This document shows, piece after piece, positions 3,954 through 60,186 of a DNA stretch of 64,000 bases. The notes under the pieces were generated by a model that searched no databases, was not told the origin of the DNA, and saw only the letters and a list, made by a program, of their open reading frames with translations. How positions within the stretch are numbered: position 1 is the stretch's first letter; each line of letters starts with the position of its first letter. A program made the position numbers and the translations under genes. The stretch is from Paraburkholderia sp. PGU19 (GTDB lineage Bacteria > Pseudomonadota > Gammaproteobacteria > Burkholderiales > Burkholderiaceae), in NCBI RefSeq assembly GCF_013426915.1, contig NZ_AP023179.1:3800671-3864670 (forward strand). Reading direction: 5' to 3'.

Positions 3954-5171
3954 TTACTTCCAGAGCGCGCAGCGCGACTCCGCTTTCGTTCCGAACGCCT
4001 GATCGCCAGGAATCGTTGCGGTGATCTTGTAGTAATCCCACGGCTCTTTCGACTCCGACGGCTTCTTCACTTCCATCAGGTACATGTCGTGGATCATGCT
4101 GCCGTCCTGACGGATGTACCCCTTCGCGAAGAAATCGTCGATCTTCGTCTTGTGCAGTTGATCCATCACCTTGTCGCTGTCGGTCGTACCAGCTGCCTGC
4201 ACGGCCTTCAGATAGGTCGTGACGGCCGAATAGTCCGCTGCCTGCAGACTGGTCGGCATCTTCTTCATCTTGTCGAAGTAGCGCTGCGCCCACTTGCGGG
4301 TATTGGCGTCCTTGTTCCAATACCAGCTATCGGTCGCGACCAGACCTTGCGTCGTTTCAAGTCCGAGGCTGTGGATATCGGTCAGAAAGATCAGCAGCGC
4401 GGCGATCTTCATCGACTTTGTCACGCCGAATTCCTTGGCGGCCTTGATCGCGTTGATCGTGTCGCCGCCAGCGTTCGCGAGACCCAGCACCTGCGCCTTC
4501 GATCCTTGTGCCTGCAACAGGAACGACGAGAAATCCGATGCCGACAACGGATGACGCACCGTGCCGAGCACCTGTCCGCCATTCGCCTTGACCACGTCCG
4601 ACGTGTTCTTTTCGAGCGCCTTGCCGAACGCGTAGTCCGCCGTCAGAAAGTACCAGGTCTTGCCGCCCTGCTTCGTAACGGCCGAACCCGTGCCTTTTGC
4701 GAGCGCCATCGTGTCGTACGCGTAGTGAACCGTGTACGGCGTGCATTGCTCGTTGGTCAGGTTGTCCGCGCCCGCGCCGATGTTGATGTACGGAACCTTC
4801 TTTTCGCCCGCGACCTGATTGGTCGACAGCGCAGTGGCCGAGTTGGTGCCGCCAATGATCACGTTGACGCCGTCGCGGTCGATCCATTCACGCGCACGCG
4901 AAGCAGCAATATCAGCCTTGTTCTGGTGATCGGCGTAGACCAGTTCGACCGGCTTGCCATTGACCTTGCCGCCGAAATCGGCAATCGCCATGCGGATCGC
5001 CTCGAGGCCACCCTGGCCATCGATATCCGCATACAGACCGGACAGATCGGTGATGTAGCCAATCTTGACGGTCGCGCCATCGGCAGCCTGCGCGTTACCC
5101 GCAGCGAACATCGTGCCCGCGGCGGCCGCAAAGCAGACTGCTGACAGCCTGGCGAAGTTCTTCAGTTTCAT
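3954..5171 (-). CDS. ABC transporter substrate-binding protein of the liv operon
   Basis: 405 residues. The signal peptide ends at GNAQAA, about residue 30. The mature protein begins DGATVKIGYITDLSGLYAD and follows the Peripla_BP_6 fold, with VNVIIGGTNSATALS and WYFLTADYAFGKALE motifs. The ATG at 5171 has an AGGAGA Shine-Dalgarno. It sits inside the operon between livF and livH, so it is the natural partner of this permease. A C-terminal cysteine (SRCALWK) could pair with the cysteine in NEQCTPY. The exact ligand, branched-chain or another amide, is unknown. Confidence 0.9.
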   Translation of the reverse strand: MKLKNFARLSAVCFAAAAGTMFAAGNAQAADGATVKIGYITDLSGLYADIDGQGGLEAIRMAIADFGGKVNGKPVELVYADHQNKADIAASRAREWIDRDGVNVIIGGTNSATALSTNQVAGEKKVPYINIGAGADNLTNEQCTPYTVHYAYDTMALAKGTGSAVTKQGGKTWYFLTADYAFGKALEKNTSDVVKANGGQVLGTVRHPLSASDFSSFLLQAQGSKAQVLGLANAGGDTINAIKAAKEFGVTKSMKIAALLIFLTDIHSLGLETTQGLVATDSWYWNKDANTRKWAQRYFDKMKKMPTSLQAADYSAVTTYLKAVQAAGTTDSDKVMDQLHKTKIDDFFAKGYIRQDGSMIHDMYLMEVKKPSESKEPWDYYKITATIPGDQAFGTKAESRCALWK

Positions 5172-5279
5172 GCGTGTCTCCTGTTTTCCATGCTTGTGGT
5201 TATCAGAGGCATCTGGGTATGTCGTGCGTCGCAGTTCCCATGACGACCCCGATTTCTGATCGGGATGCGTCCACCCCAC

Positions 5280-7055: not shown

Positions 7056-8750
7056 TCATGCAACGGACATTGGTGAAGCGGTGTTGGTTTCGACGGTGTG
7101 ACTGTCTCTTCGCGCACGACGGTCGGCGCGAATCATGTCGCTCGCGCGTTCCGCGATCATCAGTGTCGGCGAGTTCGTGTTGCCTGAGGTAATGGTGGGC
7201 ATCACCGATGCATCGACCACGCGCAGCCCTTCGACACCGAACACCCGCAAGCGGCTATCGACGACAGCGCCGGGATCATTCGATGTGCCCATCCGGCATG
7301 TGCCGACGGGATGGAAGATGGTTGTACCGACTTGACCCGCCGCGGTCTGCAATTCTTCCTCGGTCTGAAACTGGATGCCGGGCAAGATCTCTTCGGGCCG
7401 ATAGGGTTTCAAAGCAGGCGCGGCCGCAATGCGCCGCGTGAGACGCAACGCATTCGCAGCGACGTGACGGTCGTAATCCGTCGACAGATAGTTCGGCGCA
7501 ATCAGCGGCGCGGTGTGCGGATCGCGTGACTCGATATGCACACTGCCGCGCGAAGTCGGACGCAAATGGCAGACCGATGCCGTGAACGCGTTGAAGCGAT
7601 GCAAGGGTTCACCGAACTTCTCGAGTGACAGCGGCTGCACGTGGTACTCGAGATCGGAACGCGTCAACGATCCGTCATTCACATCGGACTTCGCGAACGC
7701 GCCGAGTTGCGACGGCGACATCGACATCGGCCCGCTTTGCGTCAACAAATACTGCAGGCCGATCATCATCTTGCCCCACCAATGCGCGGAGGCCGTATTC
7801 AATGTGCGCACGCCGTGCACCTTATACGCCATGCGCAACTGCAAATGATCCTGAAGATTTTCGCCGACGCCGCGCAGATCGTTCACGACGTCGATGCCGA
7901 GATTCTGCAGACGCGCGCCATTTCCGATACCAGACAATTCGAGTAATTGCGGCGAGTTCACTGCGCCCGAACTCATGATGACTTCGATGCGCGCCTTCGC
8001 GATGTACTCGACATTGTCGCCACGATATTCGACACCGACGCAGCGCTTGCCTTCAAATACGACGCGCTGCGTGTGCGCGCCCGTGATGATGGTGAGATTC
8101 GGCCGCTGCATCGCTGGCCGCAAAAACGCCTTCGATGCATTCCAGCGAATGCCGCGCTTCTGATTCACATCGAAATAGCCGACGCCCGTGTTGTCGCCGC
8201 GATTGAAATCGTCGGTGGCGGGAATGCCTGCTTCCTGCGCGGCTTCGGCGAACTTCTCCAGAATCTTCCATTTGAGGCGCTGCTTTTCAACGCGCCATTG
8301 ACCGCCGGCGCCGTGGAATTCATTCGCGCCGGCATGGTGGTCTTCGCTACGCTTGAAGATGGGCAGCACAGCATCCCACGACCACGACGAATCGCCCGTT
8401 ACACGCGCCCATTCGTCGTAGTCTTCGCGCTGGCCGCGCATGTAGATCATGCCGTTGATCGACGAGCAACCGCCCAGTACACGACCGCGCGGATACGACA
8501 ACGCACGTCCGTTGAGTCCGGGTTCTGCCTGTGTTTTATAAAGCCAATCGGTGCGCGGATTGCCAATGCAATAGAGGTAACCGACGGGCACATGAATCCA
8601 GTGGTAATCGTCCTTGCCGCCCGCTTCGAGCAGCAGCACGGTGACGTCGGGATCTTCGGTCAGGCGATTCGCAAGCACACAACCCGCCGTGCCCGCACCA
8701 ATGACGATGTAGTCGAATTCGCCTTCGAGTTTTCTTGCTGTCGTGCTCAC
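7056..8750 (-). CDS. GMC family FAD-dependent oxidoreductase (choline dehydrogenase-like)
   Basis: 564 residues from the GTG at 8750, preceded by AGGAGACAAGG; this is preferred over a start 10 codons upstream. The FAD-binding motif GAGTAG is at residues 18-23. PRGRVLGGCSSINGM is the first GMC signature, SSGAVNSPQLLELSGIG the second, and FHPVGTCRMG with SGNTNSPT supplies the active-site His and Asn. The family oxidises primary alcohols to aldehydes with electrons passing to quinone or oxygen. It is close to BetA in pattern, but no betaine genes are nearby. It lies downstream of mmsA on the same strand, so an alcohol-to-acyl-CoA route is possible. Confidence 0.85.
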   Translation of the reverse strand: MSTTARKLEGEFDYIVIGAGTAGCVLANRLTEDPDVTVLLLEAGGKDDYHWIHVPVGYLYCIGNPRTDWLYKTQAEPGLNGRALSYPRGRVLGGCSSINGMIYMRGQREDYDEWARVTGDSSWSWDAVLPIFKRSEDHHAGANEFHGAGGQWRVEKQRLKWKILEKFAEAAQEAGIPATDDFNRGDNTGVGYFDVNQKRGIRWNASKAFLRPAMQRPNLTIITGAHTQRVVFEGKRCVGVEYRGDNVEYIAKARIEVIMSSGAVNSPQLLELSGIGNGARLQNLGIDVVNDLRGVGENLQDHLQLRMAYKVHGVRTLNTASAHWWGKMMIGLQYLLTQSGPMSMSPSQLGAFAKSDVNDGSLTRSDLEYHVQPLSLEKFGEPLHRFNAFTASVCHLRPTSRGSVHIESRDPHTAPLIAPNYLSTDYDRHVAANALRLTRRIAAAPALKPYRPEEILPGIQFQTEEELQTAAGQVGTTIFHPVGTCRMGTSNDPGAVVDSRLRVFGVEGLRVVDASVMPTITSGNTNSPTLMIAERASDMIRADRRARRDSHTVETNTASPMSVA

Positions 8751-8909
8751 CCTTGTCTCCTTCGCATGGCCACGTTGCATGGCATCTGATTGCGCTTTGG
8801 GCGTTTGTCTCGCTACTGCTTTTTGTTTATCAACACCACACGCGCGATGCGCACGGCACTGCGCTAATGAAAGCGCAATGCCGTGGCCATTCCAATCTGC
8901 TGATTCGCG

Positions 8910-10427
8910 TTACTTCGCAACGGGCATCGTGAACTCGGCGCCCTTCGCGATGCTGTCCGGCCAGCGCTGCATGATGCTCTTGTAGCGCGTATAGAAGCGC
9001 ACACCTTCTTCGCCGTACGCATGGTGATCGCCGAACAGCGACCGCTTCCAGCCGCCGAACGAGTGCCATGCCATCGGCACGGGAATCGGCACGTTGATGC
9101 CAACCATGCCAATCTGGATCTGACGCGAGAACGCGCGCGCGACGCCGCCATCCGACGTGAACAGCGACACGCCGTTCGCAAATTCGTTCTTGTTGATGAG
9201 TTCGACAGCCGAAGCAAAATCGGGCACGCGCACCACACACAACACCGGGCCGAAGATTTCTTCGCGATAGATCTTCATGTCGGTCTTCACATCGTCGAAC
9301 AATGTGCCGCCGAGGAAGAAGCCTTTCTCGTGACCCGGCACCTTGTGCCCGCGTCCATCGACCACCAGTTTCGCGCCCGCCTCGATACCTGCGTCGATAT
9401 AACCGGACACTTTCTCGCGATGCGCCGCCGTCACGAGCGGACCCATTTCCGCTTCGCCTTCCATGCCGTTCATGATCTTCAGCGTCTTCACACGCGGCGT
9501 GAGCCTGTCGATCAGTTCGTCGGCGATATGACCCACTGCGACTGCAACGGAAATCGCCATGCAACGCTCGCCCGCCGAACCATACGCTGCGCCGATCAAT
9601 GCATCGACGGCCTGATCGAGATCCGCATCGGGCATCACGACGAGGTGATTCTTCGCGCCGCCCAGCGCTTGCACACGCTTGCCGTGCTTCGTCCCTTCCG
9701 TGTAGATGTATTCGGCAATCGGCGTCGAGCCGACGAACGACAGCGCGCTGACGTCGGGATGCGCGAGCAATGCATCCACAGCCACCTTGTCGCCATGCAC
9801 GACGTTGAACACGCCGTCAGGCAAGCCCGCTTCCTTCAGCAACTCGGCAAGACGGATCGACGCCGACGGATCACGTTCCGACGGCTTCAACACGAAGGTA
9901 TTGCCGCATGCGATCGCAACCGGGAACATCCAGCACGGGACCATCATCGGGAAGTTGAACGGCGTGATGCCCGCGACCACACCCAACGACTGACGCAGGT
10001 TCCAGTTGTCGATGCCACCGCCGATCTGATCGGTGAAGTCCGTCTTTAACAGATTCGGAATGCCGCACGCGAACTCGACGATCTCGATGCCGCGCATCAC
10101 TTCGCCCTTCGCATCCGAGAACACTTTGCCGTGCTCGCGCGTGATCAGCTCGGCGAGTTCGTCGTGATGACGGTCGAGCAGTTCCTTGAATTTGAACAGC
10201 ACACGGGCGCGCTTGATCGGCGCCGTTTCGCTCCATGCGGGAAACGCGGCCTTTGCGGCGGCGACGGCGGCATCGACTTCGGCAACGCTCGCGAGCGGCA
10301 CGCGCGACGACACTTCGCCTGTCGCCGGATTGAACACGTCGCCGAAGCGCTGGCTCGTGCCATCGATAGGACGGCCGTTGATCACGTGCGTCAGCGCGCG
10401 TACCTTCCCTTGATCTGTCTCGCTCAT
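8910..10427 (-). CDS. mmsA: Methylmalonate-semialdehyde dehydrogenase (CoA-acylating)
   Basis: 505 residues from the ATG at 10427, which has an AGGAGA Shine-Dalgarno. It has an aldehyde dehydrogenase fold with ITPFNFP (154-160), KPSERDP (181-187) and catalytic cysteine C289 in GSAGERCMA. The family converts (methyl)malonate semialdehyde to propionyl- or acetyl-CoA in valine, thymine and inositol breakdown. The usual mmsB partner is absent here. The GMC oxidoreductase follows after 159 bp on the same strand, and a LysR gene diverges upstream, so the three probably form one regulated catabolic locus. Confidence 0.92.
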
Positions 10428-10575
10428 GGTGTCTCCTGTGTAGGACTTTCTGATGGTCGATGCTGCAGCGCAATGGAACGCGCTTTCGCATGATCTTTCC
10501 AGCCTAATCGGCAAGTGCGTCGCAAATCCAATCAGAAATGCTCAACTGCGATATAAGGCACGTTAATATCAGCGG

Positions 10576-25380: not shown

Positions 25381-27348
25381 TCAGTTGGCGGTGCCCTGCC
25401 GTAGCGCACGCAAGAGAAAGCGCGCGGGATCGAGCGCTTCGGCGAGATCCCGCTCGATGGGCCACGGCTCGCCTTCGATCTGCGAAGCGATCAGCTCCGC
25501 GCCGAGCGACGCCCATACAAGTCCACGTGAGCCAAACGCGAATGCGCCATACAGCCCTTGTGCGCGCGGCAAATCCAGCGGCCACGCGCCGCGCAGCTTG
25601 CCTGCATCGTGGGTCGCGGCTGTTTCGTCGGCGAATGCGCCGATCATCGGCAGACGGTCGCTCGTCACGCAGCGAAACGCGACGCGCCCTGTCAGCGACG
25701 AAGGCGCTCGCATACCGATCGCCTCATGTATGTCGGGAAGCATCTGCGCGATACGGTCGATGTTCTCGACGTGAGCGTCGTCGCGTATTTGTGTGTCGGG
25801 ATCGTCGATGTCATAGGTTGCGCCTGTCAGCGTCGAGCCATCGGGCAGCGGCACTGCGTACCCTTCGCCGATCACGGGAACGCGCAATGCGTGCGCCGCA
25901 TCGCTGGGCAGCAGCGTCAATTGACCGCGCACGCTGCGCGTCGGCGCATGGTGCAGACCGGCGATCCGCGCCGCTTCATGCGCATTCGCAAAGATGACGA
26001 CGGGCGCGGCGGCAATCGCGGCGCCGTTCGCATCGAACACAATCCATTGATTCGCAACGCGTTCGACGCGCGATGCCACGACGTTGAAGCGGCGCTCCAG
26101 CAAGCCGCCCGCCGCCTCGCACTGCGCCGCGCAGAGCGACGCGGGATCGATCCAGCCGCCGTGCGGAAAGAACCAGCCGCCTCGCGCAACGCGCATGCCC
26201 GCGATGTGTTGCGCCTCTTCGCGGGAAACGGCCGTCACGTACTCCGACGGATAAGCGAACGAAGAGAACGTCTGCGCCATCGCCGACGCTTCGTCTTCAT
26301 CGGCAGCGATTTGCAGCAGACCTTCCGGACCGCGCAACGGACGATATCCGCGGCGTTCGAGCGCGGACCATTGCCGCAACGCATAAAGGAAGCCCGCGCG
26401 CGTGATGCGCGAACCCACGCTGTCGTCGCGCGACATCATCGGATGAAACACGCCGGCGGGATTGCCCGACGCATCGCGCGCGACGCCCGCATGCCGTTCG
26501 AGTGACTTGACGCGCCAGCCGCGCGCCGTGAGTCGTTCGATCGCTGCGCATCCCGCGAGCCCGGTGCCGATCACGATGGCATGCCGTTCGTCGACGGCAA
26601 GTGGCAACGGTGGTTCGTGACGCCGTACGCGATAGCGCGGCGCAAAGCGTCCGACCAGCATTGCGCGTTTCCATCCGAAGCCGTCGACTTTCCGGTATTC
26701 GAAGCCGGCTTGCTGCAATCCGCGTTTCACATCGCCCGCGCTTGTATAAGTGGCGAAGGTCGCGTCATCGCCAGCGAGGCGAGCGAGCGCCTTGAAAGTG
26801 GCGGGCGTCCACAGCTCCGGGTTCTTCGACGGCGAGAAGCCATCCAGATAGAAGGCGTCGGCGCGCAGCCAGAGTGAATGCAGCGTTTGCGCCGCGTCGC
26901 CGAACACGAGCGTGAGCGTGACGCGCCCGTCCTCGAACTCGAGCCGATGGGTGCCGGGCACGAGCGTCGGCCATGCATCGACGAGCTGTTGCGCAAGCGG
27001 TGCGATCGATGCGTCCGCAACGGCCACCGCGCTCGCTGCCATCAGATCGTCGCGCGAGAACGGATGCTTTTCCGTCGATACGAAATGCAGGCGCTCGCAA
27101 CGATCCGGGTCCGCACGCCATGCGGCCCACGTCACGAGAAAGTTGATGCCCATGCCGAAGCCCGTTTCCAGCATCGTGAATACGCGCCGTTTCTGCCAGC
27201 GCGACGGCAATTCATTGCCTTTCAGGAAGACGTATTCGGCCTGCGCAAGTGCACCGACGGCGCTGTGATAGATGTCGTCGTGGCGTGGCGAATAGGGGGT
27301 GCCGTTGTCGCGAAACGCGAGGATGGCGGGAACGAGCGGGTCGGTCAT
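25381..27348 (-). CDS. mnmC: Bifunctional tRNA 5-methylaminomethyl-2-thiouridine biosynthesis protein MnmC
   Basis: 655 residues from the ATG at 27348; an in-frame start 7 codons upstream is possible. The N-terminal SAM methyltransferase domain (about 1-240) has LETGFGMGINFLVTW and FYLDGFSPSKNPELW. The C-terminal FAD-dependent domain (about 255-640) begins IVIGTGLAGCAAIERLTARGW. It demodifies cmnm5 to nm5 and then methylates to mnm5 at tRNA wobble U34, downstream of MnmE, whose gene is also in this window (58.8 kb). Confidence 0.94.
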   Translation of the reverse strand: MTDPLVPAILAFRDNGTPYSPRHDDIYHSAVGALAQAEYVFLKGNELPSRWQKRRVFTMLETGFGMGINFLVTWAAWRADPDRCERLHFVSTEKHPFSRDDLMAASAVAVADASIAPLAQQLVDAWPTLVPGTHRLEFEDGRVTLTLVFGDAAQTLHSLWLRADAFYLDGFSPSKNPELWTPATFKALARLAGDDATFATYTSAGDVKRGLQQAGFEYRKVDGFGWKRAMLVGRFAPRYRVRRHEPPLPLAVDERHAIVIGTGLAGCAAIERLTARGWRVKSLERHAGVARDASGNPAGVFHPMMSRDDSVGSRITRAGFLYALRQWSALERRGYRPLRGPEGLLQIAADEDEASAMAQTFSSFAYPSEYVTAVSREEAQHIAGMRVARGGWFFPHGGWIDPASLCAAQCEAAGGLLERRFNVVASRVERVANQWIVFDANGAAIAAAPVVIFANAHEAARIAGLHHAPTRSVRGQLTLLPSDAAHALRVPVIGEGYAVPLPDGSTLTGATYDIDDPDTQIRDDAHVENIDRIAQMLPDIHEAIGMRAPSSLTGRVAFRCVTSDRLPMIGAFADETAATHDAGKLRGAWPLDLPRAQGLYGAFAFGSRGLVWASLGAELIASQIEGEPWPIERDLAEALDPARFLLRALRQGTAN

Positions 27349-50707: not shown

Positions 50708-51631
50708 CTAGCCGCCGCGTGCAGCGCCTGCCCGATCGGCGACTTCATTCCACAGATGCATCGCCGCATAGGCACGCCACGGCCGCCACGCGTCAGTTCG
50801 GGCGCGCTGCTGGTTGGGACGCACGAGCGCCGGATCGCGCGCTGCGATGGCTTGCATCAGCACGAGGTCCCAGGCGGGCCACGCGTCGGCGTCCCGCCAG
50901 GCGCGCATCGCGACGTATTCGACCGTCCATGGACCGATTCCGGGCAGCGCGAGCAACGACGCGCGCAACTGCGCAAGATCGAAGGACGCGCTGCCGATGC
51001 TGTCGATCGGCACGTCTCCGTTCGCCACGGCGCGCGCGAAGCCTTGCAAGGCGTCAATGCGCTTGCCAGGCATGCCGATCTGCGCAAGATCGACGGCGGC
51101 GAGCGCGGCGGGCGTCGGGATGCGCCACGCGGTGCTCTCGTGCGGATGACCGTCGATGCGCTCGCCGGCGCGCTGCACGATTCGTCCGATGATCGTCGTG
51201 GCGGCCTTCACGCTGACCTGCTGGCCAACGATGGTCCGCACGACGAGCTCGAACCCGGACCAAGCGCCGGGCACGCGCAGGCCTGGCGCCGCCGCGACCA
51301 GCGGCGCGAGCCACGGATCGCCCGCGAGGCTCGCGCCGATCGCCTTGGGATCCGCGTGCAGATCGAACATGCGAGCAATCGGCGCGGCGAGCGCGTCCGC
51401 GTGACGGCTCGCCGCGCCGTCGATGGTCGCGACGATGCAATGCCTGCGGGGATGCTTCCGGACGTTGAGTGTGCCGCTATCGCCGTTCCAGCCGATCGCC
51501 CGACGCCATACGCCGTCTTCGACGGCTTCGACGCCCGGCGTCGCGCGTCCTCCGAAGAAGCGGAGGATGCGCGGCCAGTCATAGGGAGCTTTGAACGGGA
51601 GTTCGAGTGTGACGGTCAATGTGGGGCTCAA
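50708..51631 (-). CDS. alkA: DNA-3-methyladenine glycosylase (AlkA-type)
   Basis: 307 residues from a TTG at 51631 that overlaps the ada stop by 4 bp (TTGA); another TTG at 51619 is possible. The N-terminal AlkA domain (LTVTLELPFKAPYDWPRILRF shown by its ends) is followed by HhH-GPD: VRTIVGQQVSVKAATTIIGR, the hairpin LPGIGPWTVEYVAMRAW, and the catalytic aspartate in WPAWDLVL. It removes alkylated purines. Coupling to ada gives a single adaptive-response unit. A longer frame upstream is an overlap with ada in another frame. Confidence 0.9.
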   Translation of the reverse strand: MSPTLTVTLELPFKAPYDWPRILRFFGGRATPGVEAVEDGVWRRAIGWNGDSGTLNVRKHPRRHCIVATIDGAASRHADALAAPIARMFDLHADPKAIGASLAGDPWLAPLVAAAPGLRVPGAWSGFELVVRTIVGQQVSVKAATTIIGRIVQRAGERIDGHPHESTAWRIPTPAALAAVDLAQIGMPGKRIDALQGFARAVANGDVPIDSIGSASFDLAQLRASLLALPGIGPWTVEYVAMRAWRDADAWPAWDLVLMQAIAARDPALVRPNQQRARTDAWRPWRAYAAMHLWNEVADRAGAARGG

Positions 51632-52758
51632 GCGGCGTGATCCATGTCGGCGGTGGGATGAATGGCCTCGTGGGCGTCGCGCGATTCGCGGTGCGTCTCG
51701 GTATCGAGCAACACGGCTTTGCGCGCGACACCCCAGCGATAGCCCGCCAGCGCGCCGTCCTTGTGCACGACGCGATGGCAAGGTATCGCGAGCGCGACAG
51801 GGTTCGATGCGCAGGCATTGGCGACGGCCCGCACCGCGCGCGGCGAACCGACCGCTTCGGCGATCTGCGAATAGCTGCGCGTCTCGCCGTACGGAATGCG
51901 GCGCAGCGCTTCCCACACACGCTGCTGGAAGGCCGTGGCGGCGATATCGAGCGGCAGATCGAAACGCTGACGCGTGCCGCGCAGATAACCGTCGATCTGC
52001 TCGATGAAAGGCGCGAGCTGTTTCGGATCGTAGATCAGTTCCGCGCTCCCGAATTCGTTGCGCAGGTCGTCGACGAGCAACGCGTTGTCGTCGCCGAAGG
52101 CGATCTTGCAGATGCCCTTGTCGGTCGTCGCGACCAGCACCAGGCCGAGCGAAGTCTGCGCGCTCGCGTAGTGGACGCGCAGCCCGGCGCCTTTGCGCCG
52201 ATATTCGGACGGCGCCATGCCCAGTTCTGCGGCGGCCGTATCGTACATCCGGGACGGCGAGCCGAAGCCCGCGTCGACGGTGGCGCGGGTCACGTCCGCG
52301 CCCCGTTGCAGCGCGTCGCGCAACGCTGCGCCGCGCTGGGCCGCCTGGTATTGCCGCGGCGACACGCCCACTACACGCTTGAACAGCCGCTGCAGGTGAA
52401 ACGGGCTGACGTGCACTGCCTCGCTCAGTTGCGCGAGCGTGAGGCGTTGCTGCGGGTCGGCGTCGAGCGCCGCGCAGGCGCGGTTCACGATTTCGAGTTC
52501 GCGCGGCAGGCCGCCCGGCTGGCAGCGTTTGCATTCGCGATAGCCCGCGGCGCGCGCTTCGTCGGTTGAAGTGAAGAAGTCGACGTTCTCGCGGCGCGGC
52601 AGGCGTGAGGCGCACGACGGTCGGCAGAACACACCCGTCGTACGGACGCCGTAGAAGAAGGCGCCGTCGGCGGACATGTCGCGTTTCAGGACGGCTGTCC
52701 AGCGCTCGTCGTCGTTGGCGAACGTGGCGGGCGTCGCTTGGGAGAAGGCTGTGTTCAT
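51628..52758 (-). CDS. ada: Bifunctional Ada: methylated-DNA methyltransferase and regulator
   Basis: 376 residues. The N-terminal zinc domain has C45, C49, C76 and C79 (VFCRPSC; RECKRC), with C45 the likely phosphotriester methyl acceptor. An AraC-type helix-turn-helix follows (about 100-190). The C-terminal O6-methylguanine transferase has C327 in AIPCHRVV. On methylation of the N-terminal cysteine it activates its own operon, here ada-alkA. Confidence 0.95.
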   Translation of the reverse strand: MNTAFSQATPATFANDDERWTAVLKRDMSADGAFFYGVRTTGVFCRPSCASRLPRRENVDFFTSTDEARAAGYRECKRCQPGGLPRELEIVNRACAALDADPQQRLTLAQLSEAVHVSPFHLQRLFKRVVGVSPRQYQAAQRGAALRDALQRGADVTRATVDAGFGSPSRMYDTAAAELGMAPSEYRRKGAGLRVHYASAQTSLGLVLVATTDKGICKIAFGDDNALLVDDLRNEFGSAELIYDPKQLAPFIEQIDGYLRGTRQRFDLPLDIAATAFQQRVWEALRRIPYGETRSYSQIAEAVGSPRAVRAVANACASNPVALAIPCHRVVHKDGALAGYRWGVARKAVLLDTETHRESRDAHEAIHPTADMDHAA

Positions 52759-52923
52759 CGTTTGCCCCGGGGACGGTTTTGATGCTTACCACTTTAGCGG
52801 GCAGGTTCACACAGTACGCTCCGCTTCTTGCTGTGTCATTTGGGCCGCGCGACGGGGAGATTTTTCCCATATATCGGGAGAATCTGCCCCTTAAAAAAGT
52901 TGGGGTTTTCCCTTAAAAAGTTA

Positions 52924-52952
52924 TTGCGTCGCATCAAGCCGGCGTGTATAGT
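52924..52952 (+). promoter_or_regulatory. Sigma-70 promoter of the candidate small RNA
   Basis: TTGCGT (52924-52929), a 17-bp spacer, TATAGT (52947-52952). Start would be near 52959. No protein-coding gene follows closely; a terminator is reached about 60 bp later. Confidence 0.6.
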
Positions 52953-52958
52953 GGTTCT

Positions 52959-53021
52959 TGTCTCCTCCATGTCTCCTCCTGATATGGATTCAGCCCGCTC
53001 CAATCGAGCGGGCTTTTTTTT
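52959..53021 (+). ncRNA. Candidate small RNA with anti-Shine-Dalgarno CUCCUCC motifs
   Basis: About 63 nt between a sigma-70-like promoter and a strong terminator. It holds TCTCCTCC twice (52961-52968 and 52972-52979). The second copy sits in the loop of a hairpin, TCCAT (52966-52970) pairing with ATGGA (52984-52988). The first overlaps the stem base. The terminator is AGCCCGCTC/GAGCGGGCT plus eight T. CU-rich loops of this kind are a hallmark of small RNAs that mask ribosome binding sites in rhizobia and Burkholderia. No open frame fits. Confidence 0.6.
52992..53021 (+). terminator. Terminator of the candidate small RNA
   Basis: AGCCCGCTC (52992-53000), CAATC loop, GAGCGGGCT (53006-53014), then a continuous T run to 53021. 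It follows no coding gene on the plus strand. Confidence 0.85.
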
Positions 53022-53121: not shown

Positions 53122-53535
53122 ATGAAATTCCAGATTCTCGATATCGATCACGTCGTCATCCGCGCTACTAATCTCGACGCGATGACGCGCTTTTATCAGG
53201 ACGTACTCGGTTGCACGCTGGAGAGGGAACAACTCGAAATCGGGCTGATTCAGCTGCGCGCGGGACGCTCGTTGATCGACCTGTTGCAGGTTGGCGGAAA
53301 GATCGACCGGCCGGAAAGCGGTACGCCCGGCGCGGGGCGAAACATGGATCACGTTTGCCTGCGCGTCGAGCCTTTCGACGCGGGCGCGTTGAAGACATGG
53401 TTCGCCGCGCAAGACGTGCGCATCGGCGAAGAGGCGCAGCGTTACGGTGCGGATGGTTATGGACCGTCGCTGTATCTGTTCGATCCGGAGGGCAATATGG
53501 TCGAACTCAAAGGCCCACCGGCTGATAAGCCTTGA
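53122..53535 (+). CDS. VOC family (glyoxalase-like) protein
   Basis: 137 residues from the ATG at 53122. Two beta-alpha-beta-beta-beta modules: DIDHVVIRATNLDAMTRFYQ (8-27) and NMDHVCLRVEPFDAGALKTW (74-93), with LYLFDPEGNMVELKGP closing the site. Possible metal ligands are H10, H77 and E128. Such proteins include glyoxalase I, dioxygenases and resistance proteins; the substrate cannot be told. Confidence 0.88.
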   Translation: MKFQILDIDHVVIRATNLDAMTRFYQDVLGCTLEREQLEIGLIQLRAGRSLIDLLQVGGKIDRPESGTPGAGRNMDHVCLRVEPFDAGALKTWFAAQDVRIGEEAQRYGADGYGPSLYLFDPEGNMVELKGPPADKP

Positions 53536-58785: not shown

Positions 58786-60186
58786 CTACTTGCCGATACA
58801 AAACCTGCTGAAAATTACACCGAGCAGGTCGTCGGAAGTGAATTCGCCGGTGATCGAATTGAGTTGATCCTGAGCCAGTCGCAACTCCTCAGCGAACAGA
58901 TCGAGAGCTTGCGCATTCTGATCAGCGTGTTCTGCGGCGAGCCCCAAATGTTCTTGCGCTGCTCTAAGCGCAATCAGATGCCGCTCGCGCGCCAGATAAA
59001 CGGTTTCCGCGCCGGCTTGCCAACCCGCGATGCGCAGTAGTTCGCCACGCAGCAAGTCAATCCCGTCGCCCCTTTTTGCGGACAGGCGAACCTCGCACGA
59101 ATCGCCGTCGTCCGTCCCATTCAAGCGCGTGACGCCCGGTGCAATTCCCGTCAAATCCGTCTTGTTCATCACTCGCACGACGGGCACGCCCATCGGAAAA
59201 CGCGCGGCGATCGAATCGTCGTCGGCGGTCATGCCCGAGCGGGCGTCAAGCAGATGTAGCACGACATCGGCGCGCTGGATCTCACCCCACGTCCGCTCGA
59301 TACCGATCTTCTCGACCTCGTCTTCCGTCTCACGCAGCCCCGCCGTGTCGATCACATGCAGTGGAATGCCTTCGATCTGTATCGTCTGCGCGACCTTGTC
59401 GCGGGTCGTGCCCGCAATCGGCGTGACGATCGCGAGTTCCGCGCCCGCGAGCGCGTTCAGCAGCGACGATTTGCCGACGTTCGGCTGCCCGGCCAGCACG
59501 ACGGACAAGCCTTCGCGCAGCAGCGCGCCCTGCCGGGCTTCGCTGAGCACCAGCGCGAGACGTTCGCGGATGCGCGCCAGCTTGCCGCGTGCGTCGGCGG
59601 CTTCGAGAAAATCGATTTCTTCTTCGGGGAAATCGAGCGTCGCCTCGACGAGCATCCGCAACGTGATCACCTCTTCGACCAAAGCATGGATATCGCGCGA
59701 AAACGCGCCTTCCAGTGAGCGGCCAGCCGAGCGCGCGGCCGCTTCCGTGCTGGCTTCGATCAGATCGGCGACGGCCTCCGCCTGCGCGAGATCGAGCTTG
59801 TCGTTGAGAAACGCGCGACGCGTGAACTCGCCCGGTTCCGCAAGCCGCAGACCGAACGCGCGTCCGGCATCGATGCAGCGCTGCAGAACCAGCTGGAGCA
59901 CGATCGGGCCGCCGTGCCCCTGCAACTCGAGCACATGCTCGCCGGTGTAGGAGTGCGGAGCCGGAAAATACAGCGCGATGCCCCGATCGAGCGCGTTTCC
60001 GCCGCCGTCAAGAAACGGGACGTAGCTCGCGTGGCGCGGCGTCAGGGGTTGCCCGGTGAGCGCCTGCATCATCGGCTGCGCGGCCGCTTCGCCGGCGCGC
60101 CCGAACGAAATCCGCACCACACCTATCCCGCCGCGGCCGGGTGCTGTGGCAATGGCGACGATCGGATCGGAATCGGTTGCGAGCAT
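58786..60186 (-). CDS. mnmE: tRNA uridine-5-carboxymethylaminomethyl(34) synthesis GTPase MnmE
   Basis: 466 residues. The N-terminal tetrahydrofolate-binding domain (1-118) starts [20 protein letters not shown]. The helical domain is interrupted by the G domain (about 220-385) with [16 protein letters not shown], a [10 protein letters not shown] switch and NKTDLTG. The invariant C-terminal FCIGK is present. It works with MnmG to modify wobble U34 in tRNA, the step before MnmC. Confidence 0.96.

Follow-up and report, generated by a model that had tools for sequence, protein, structure and literature searches.

The double-hairpin small RNAs (sRNAs) of Betaproteobacteria, also known as toxic small RNAs and gathered in Rfam family RF02278, fold into two hairpins, of which the second is an intrinsic terminator, and have a CU-rich 5' end. 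Here we describe a gene of this type in Paraburkholderia sp. PGU19, in a stretch of 64,000 nucleotides (contig NZ_AP023179.1, positions 3,800,671 to 3,864,670; the window), with a predicted operator for the regulator PhaR at its promoter. For ncS03, ncS05, ncS27 and ncS62 of Burkholderia cenocepacia, 55–80% of the predicted interactions lie within 20 nt of a gene start, with the CU-rich stretch over the ribosome-binding site (RBS) (PMC5688073). Overexpression of ncS27 slows growth and an antisense RNA to its 5' CU region has the opposite effect (PMC5688073); a review narrows the effect of overexpression to growth with phenylalanine, tyrosine, glycerol and galactose, other substrates being unaffected, and ties NcS27 to metabolic shutdown under nutrient deprivation (PMC10987360). 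S17 of Bordetella pertussis is akin, with a conserved 5' region and Hfq-dependent repression at RBSs. It represses BP2158 through Site 1 at its 5' end, for which compensatory mutations are reported, and disruption of Site 1 significantly weakens the repression (PMC11722255); mmsB is also listed among the S17 targets, its reporter falling about two-fold.

Free PhaR represses phaP1, and polyhydroxybutyrate (PHB) sequesters PhaR (PMC12849132, PMC12542648); an activating role of PhaR has been reported as well, at phaP3 (PMC12849132). The consensus palindrome YTKNTGCRNYGCANMAR, whose source tolerated up to three mismatches, was deduced for Ralstonia eutropha, and the phaP3 sites were confirmed by electrophoretic mobility shift assay (EMSA) (PMC12849132). 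EMSA shows PhaR of Sinorhizobium meliloti binding to the mmgR promoter (rated 'Efficient'), and loss of PhaR raises MmgR (PMC12542648). MmgR (RF00519, suhB, alpha-r8) offers a parallel: an Hfq-dependent sRNA of 77 nt, linked to PHB and reportedly repressed by AniA/PhaR through a promoter site. It differs in belonging to another Rfam family, in being also under NtrC and in lowering phasins.

The window sRNA is almost certainly a member of RF02278. Positions 52959–53021 score 82.9 bits (cut-off 50) over model positions 1–64 of 64, and the RNA has the two hairpins, the terminator and the CU-rich 5' end of the family. The first-pass annotation, made from the sequence alone, had called it an orphan; with a score so far over the cut-off and several paralogs in the same genome, an orphan or new family can be rejected. 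The 11.2 Mb genome holds four copies above the cut-off and three at 48.5, 47.5 and 39.6 bits; nine more matches, at 25 bits or less, look like noise. Among 59 genomes, this one included, a match at E ≤ 1e-4 was obtained in 45 and a score above the cut-off in 42, while 116 of 300 genomes of the order have a match at E ≤ 1e-8; 14 control genomes gave none in either search. Three other families were rejected: suhB/MmgR (RF00519, 21.4 bits, cut-off 41), Burkholderia anti-hemB RNA (RF02837, 33.5 bits, cut-off 49.5) and the NmsR sRNAs of Neisseria (RF02877, 25.3 bits, cut-off 52), whose two CU-rich stretches likewise face RBS regions (PMC5688073). With the B. cenocepacia RNAs the window copy shares the family model, the two hairpins, the CU-rich sites, the size and the dispersed copies, and no difference was seen in the RNA. 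By gene orientation alone (← → → when turned), a comparison that leaves gene identity aside, it appears most like ncS05. The RNA itself is ordinary; the interest lies in its promoter.

The predicted PhaR-type operator, TTATTGCGTCGCATCAA, overlaps the -35 element (Table 1). It also matches the core of the S. meliloti PhaR motif (PMC12542648), and PhaR is encoded in the same genome (PF07879, E 1.4e-30). In most of 30 aligned loci of the genus (that of the window and 29 best hits of the genus, those with loci), conservation extends past the -35 element as TTGCRNCGCRYCAR, two loci (L032, L036) departing from it; two further copies of the same genome (L002, L003), whose promoters are otherwise unlike, have the TTGCRNCGCRYCAR core in common. 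Within 150 nt upstream, YTKNTGCRNYGCANMAR is found with at most one mismatch at four of the seven copies of this genome, 25 of the 29 best hits and 25 of 45 genus paralogs, chosen among the matches listed; the reversed consensus is found at none of these, nor at 15 copies of distant genomes. With two mismatches allowed, the counts become 27/29 best hits, 33/45 paralogs and 6/15 distant copies, against 0/29, 2/45 and 0/15 for the reversed consensus.

The best Phasin_2 gene has two PhaR-type sites upstream in 30 of 30 genomes, and none to the reversed consensus. A matrix was built from these 63 phasin-promoter sites, themselves chosen with the published consensus, and sites of at least 10 bits were called strong. 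Strong sites precede 4/7 copies of this genome, 21/29 best hits and 29/45 paralogs. In other genera they precede 58 of 95 copies in genomes with PhaR and none of 28 in genomes without it (dinucleotide shuffles, 0.4 to 4%). Per genome, 56 of 77 with PhaR have a strong site upstream of an sRNA copy, as against 0 of 28 without (shuffles, 3/1540 and 1/560, respectively); by genus the figures are 43/55 and 0/15, and with upstream GC content of at most 0.48 they are 30/39 and 0/20. Fisher's test gives P 1.6e-12 for the per-genome contrast, assuming an independence that the genomes do not have. This comparison covers 105 of the 115 other genomes with RF02278 at E ≤ 1e-8, one of them (G289) from the genus of the window; G069 and nine genomes whose copies were not among the matches listed were left out, and absence of PhaR means no PF07879 match, some genomes being incomplete. 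The best copy was used, from 96 copies in the 77 genomes with PhaR and 28 in the 28 without; as the unequal copy number favours the former, the count was repeated with one best-scoring copy per genome, giving 54/77 and 0/28.

On contigs from named organisms, a strong site precedes 50 of 79 loci among the matches listed, with examples in Achromobacter, Bordetella, Pandoraea, Herbaspirillum, Thauera, Zoogloea and Cupriavidus gilardii; two more Cupriavidus contigs reach 2.8 and -2.5 bits, the first with ATTTCGCAGTGCAAATT shortly upstream of the -35 element. These loci are pattern matches (79 of 80 scored, one having 23 nt upstream), and of six checked against Rfam three were not RF02278. A TATAAT-like -10 element lies most often (24 cases) 26 nt from the site start, with smaller clusters near 14 and 46; the 26-nt distance places the operator over the -35 element. 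In some copies of genome G041, such as L080, a PhaR-like core stands directly before the -10 element, not on the -35 element.

Bordetella provides a comparison with a described promoter. That of S17 has -35 TTGCAT, 17 nt and -10 TACTAT, and its authors postulate an unknown repressor (PMC11722255); S17 differs from the window sRNA in a long leader removed by RNase E and in its link to BvgAS. Two Bordetella contigs carry TTGCATCGCACAAA (L305) and TTGCAACGCACAAA (L324, RF02278 by Rfam) before a -10-like sequence, and Bordetella genomosp. 12 has ATCTTGCAACGCACAAA...CTACTATT, the same layout as the published S17 promoter. In L324, L305 and L331 the S17-type -35 element lies inside a PhaR-type palindrome, and L331 has an extra site, TTGTTGCGGTGCACAAA, upstream. 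For three of the four B. cenocepacia RNAs a common upstream motif has been reported (PMC5688073); its reading as a PhaR site is ours.

As for the action of the RNA, published work on relatives, with targets in carbon and amino-acid metabolism and effects on growth, is in line with the earlier suggestion of a broad translational repressor whose CU-rich stretches pair with RBSs, and by analogy the window sRNA is very probably such a repressor. The first-pass annotation had stressed the copy in the loop; the most fixed part of the RNA is instead the copy at the 5' end (Table 1), with TGTCTCCTCC complete in 178 of the 205 copies, which agrees with the dependence of S17 on Site 1.

Taking position, co-occurrence with PhaR and the phasin-derived matrix together, we think it likely that the sRNA is under direct PhaR control, and the explanation that probably fits best is that of an RF02278 sRNA blocking RBSs in trans and transcribed under the control of PhaR. 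When PHB is lacking, PhaR on the palindrome over the -35 element would repress the sRNA; as PHB builds up under carbon excess or growth arrest, PhaR would be drawn to the granules and the sRNA made, which would make it a read-out of stored carbon. Its open 5' UGUCUCCUCC and the hairpin loop would then pair in trans with AGGAGACA-type RBSs of transport and catabolism genes and block their translation, as published for relatives, and the cell would take up and degrade less of any further carbon and amino acids. The activation of phaP3 by PhaR makes the sign of the effect on the sRNA less than certain. In glucose medium ncS03, ncS05 and ncS27 of B. cenocepacia rise 8.0-, 6.9- and 4.3-fold (PMC5688073); this induction, the mmgR case and the S17 promoter layout are consistent with PhaR control. 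A predicted PhaR-type site at RF02278 promoters is what seems to be new here; our searches, covering part of the matching literature, found no report linking PhaR to these RNAs.

With somewhat less confidence, we favour a wider view in which the PhaR regulon has an RNA arm throughout the order, made up of RF02278 sRNAs: PHB granules would titrate PhaR and so release anti-Shine-Dalgarno sRNAs that close down the uptake of carbon and amino acids and their catabolism. If the link is real, it ties carbon storage (PHB) to the shutting down of nutrient uptake, answers for RF02278 what Sass et al. 2017 left open and puts PhaR forward as a candidate for the repressor postulated at the S17 promoter. 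The same wiring of PhaR with MmgR in Alphaproteobacteria would then have arisen twice, or the RNA was replaced. The boldest extension, an sRNA sponge in the same window, is taken up below.

Several observations weigh against this assignment. Sites stay below 10 bits in 21 of the 77 genomes with PhaR, including both such genomes of family f43. In the genome of the window, the three copies under the Rfam cut-off (L005–L007) have no strong site and that of L004 lies at -55, its consensus match standing at -142, away from the promoter; at most one mismatch to the consensus is seen in just 1 of 15 copies from seven distant genomes. The matrix sites were pre-selected with the published consensus. 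Across the genome, 188 sites match the motif with at most one mismatch, against 164 for the reversed control, and the matrix gives six hits of at least 10 bits within the 64-kb window, or about 2% for each stretch of 240 nt, among them those at 26371, 40169, 44811 and 55333 (10.4 to 14.0 bits). Because of this a single site proves little, and the argument rests on position and on the presence of PhaR. The latter follows clades, so that the 105 genomes are not independent; families f15, f29, f33, f35, f47 and f50, as sampled, have neither PhaR nor the site. There are few genera in which contrasts can be drawn. Genus g105 agrees with the assignment (G210 with, G330 without); g41 gives an equivocal case, G157, which reaches 8.8 bits with no PhaR match in an assembly 85% complete; g10 is mixed and g68 uninformative. 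Glucose induction does not single out PHB, as ncS03 and ncS05 also rise in biofilm and starvation (PMC5688073). Binding of PhaR at RF02278 promoters is a prediction. A search with a loose TGC/GCA pattern found nothing upstream of phaR itself, and three of ten phasin loci examined in the genome (L047, L050, L051) are tied to sites with at most one mismatch among the matches listed.

Much of this suits the main rival, in which the sRNA and its targets are the same and TTGCRNYGCA is a habit of the promoter or the operator of another regulator lost together with PhaR: the site often contains the -35 element, PhaR is missing clade by clade and the motif is barely enriched genome-wide. We nevertheless regard it as unlikely. 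Sigma-70 does not require the part past the -35 element (mostly CGCRYCAR in the genus loci, with L032 and L036 departing), sites also stand at other distances from -10-like sequences (near 14 and 46, where -10 calls are weak), the matrix derives from phasin promoters only, and within genus g105 site and PhaR are both lost.

Another possibility is that the RNA is toxic in a general way, interfering with translation without chosen targets, as a mimic of the anti-Shine-Dalgarno sequence or by titrating Hfq. CUCCUCC does resemble the anti-Shine-Dalgarno sequence of 16S rRNA, and the family takes its name from toxicity in E. coli. This we consider improbable: S17S is barely toxic in E. coli, with a modest impairment on entry into stationary phase, ncS27 affects growth on some substrates only (PMC10987360), repression of BP2158 needs pairing by Site 1 (PMC11722255), and the core anti-Shine-Dalgarno sequence does not extend to the conserved 5' GUC. 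A silent or decayed copy is hardly credible, given expressed relatives and a conserved promoter, pair of hairpins and synteny.

Table 1. Features of the sRNA locus, and candidate target sites, in the window.
Feature	Positions	Strand	Basis or remark
PhaR-type operator TTATTGCGTCGCATCAA (predicted), overlaps -35	52921..52937	.	1 mismatch to published consensus; 13.5 bits, phaP-derived matrix
sRNA gene, RF02278 Betaproteobacteria toxic / double-hairpin sRNA, ~63 nt	52959..53021	+	Rfam 82.9 bits; fold z -7.0
-35 element TTGCGT	52924..52929	+	sequence; TTGC 30/30, TTGCGT 26/30 genus loci
-10 element TATAGT, 17-nt spacer	52947..52952	+	sequence; GTGTATA(G/T)T 30/30 genus loci
Site 1, 5' UGUCUCCUCC, last 3 nt inside predicted stem	52959..52968	+	fold; NGTCTCCTCC in 198/205 copies
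Site 2, second UGUCUCCUCC, part stem, part loop (predicted)	52970..52979	+	second CTCCTC in 151/205 copies
Hairpin 1, 8 bp, loop UCCUCCU (predicted)	52966..52988	+	five consensus pairs, three with double-sided changes (44 sequences)
Hairpin 2, 9-bp intrinsic terminator and U tail	52992..53021	+	six of eight consensus pairs with double-sided changes
Conserved upstream element GGGTTTTCCCTTAAAAAG	52903..52920	+	GGGTTTTCCC in 30/30 genus loci
Candidate target: AGGAGACA before likely start of ABC-transporter substrate-binding protein gene (3954-5171)	5175..5182	-	Pfam Peripla_BP_6
Candidate target: AGGAGACA before likely start of GMC oxidoreductase gene, choline-dehydrogenase-like (7056-8750)	8754..8761	-	
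Candidate target: AGGAGACA before likely start of methylmalonate-semialdehyde dehydrogenase gene, mmsA-type (8910-10427)	10430..10437	-	TIGR01722 725.9 bits

The promoter (TTGCGT-N17-TATAGT), the predicted transcript of about 63 nt with two CU-rich copies and the 9-bp terminator stem (52992–53014) followed by a T run, all described in the first-pass annotation, can be read directly in the sequence. A promoter scan reported no promoter; TTGCGT has three of the six consensus letters and the scan threshold was four, so that support for the promoter comes from its conservation in all 30 genus loci. The two UGUCUCCUCC copies stand at the 5' end of the predicted transcript with one base between them; in DNA they read TGTCTCCTCC, and the opposite strand reads AGGAGACA both times. 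The fold of 52957–53021 has -28.0 kcal/mol, and none of 200 shuffles was equally good. In hairpin 1, UCCAUGUC (52966–52973) is predicted to pair with GAUAUGGA (52981–52988). One copy had been placed in the loop of a hairpin; this stands in so far as UCCUCCU of the second copy is looped, while the stem has 8 bp and takes in the final UCC of the first copy, leaving the open part of the latter as a 5' tail. A search of the genome for CTCCTCC-N5-40-CTCCTCC gave no match, because the two motifs in the window are only 4 nt apart. A protein-coding alternative was rejected: open reading frames overlap mechanically, yet the conserved part is the RNA structure.

The covariance search that had been proposed against Rfam and relatives thus identified the family and found it across relatives, and the promoter, loops and terminator, whose loss in relatives had been named as grounds for doubt, are all kept. 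Nine of the 13 consensus pairs in the two stems have double-sided changes (44 copies, hand-picked for diversity). The gene lies between a divergent ada (51628–52758, minus strand) and a co-oriented gene of the glyoxalase superfamily (53122–53535), with yaeQ beyond; ada is nearby in 29 of the 29 best hits of the genus and the glyoxalase-family gene in 28. A Paraburkholderia elongata contig (L308) agrees in promoter type and in neighbours.

AGGAGACA is exactly complementary to UGUCUCCU and occurs six times in the window, against 0.92 expected from shuffles. Two occurrences are the sRNA itself, one is in the sRNA ncS01 and three stand directly before likely gene starts (Table 1), which makes these three genes candidate targets by complementarity.

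ncS01 (RF02865, 90.9 bits) lies at 1741–1842 on the minus strand. Its open stretch carries GAGGAGACAUGAGG, complementary to the double-hairpin sRNA, and its duplex with nt 1–31 of the latter is predicted at -31.0 kcal/mol, a value that none of 500 shuffles reached. Such a strong duplex suggests that ncS01 may be a sponge of the window sRNA. A segment near 59212–59364 (minus strand) pairs even better (-33.7), and AGGAGACA is also a type of RBS here. A weaker PhaR-type site (10.8 bits) at 1896–1912, 54–70 nt upstream of ncS01, could be due to chance, as there are six such hits in the 64 kb.

The element GGGTTTTCCC, next to the operator, may be the site of another regulator or a UP-like element. 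It was rejected as a signal common to the family: the pattern SGGGTTTTCCCYTAAA occurs once in the genome at up to one mismatch, and none of the six paralogs has the element; upstream of L005 there is a similar GGGTTTCCCC. Three pattern matches in metagenome-assembled genomes labelled euryarchaeote, Desulfovibrionaceae and Bathyarchaeota (L298, L306, L328) were set aside as probably due to chance, being below the RF02278 cut-off. Genome G041 (family f8) has eight RF02278 copies above the cut-off. Two copies in the genome of the window (L004, L006) and three in relatives (L111, L112, L127) carry GGGTTTATACT around the -10 element and have no strong PhaR site at the -35 element; copies with this promoter class may form a branch of the family under different regulation.
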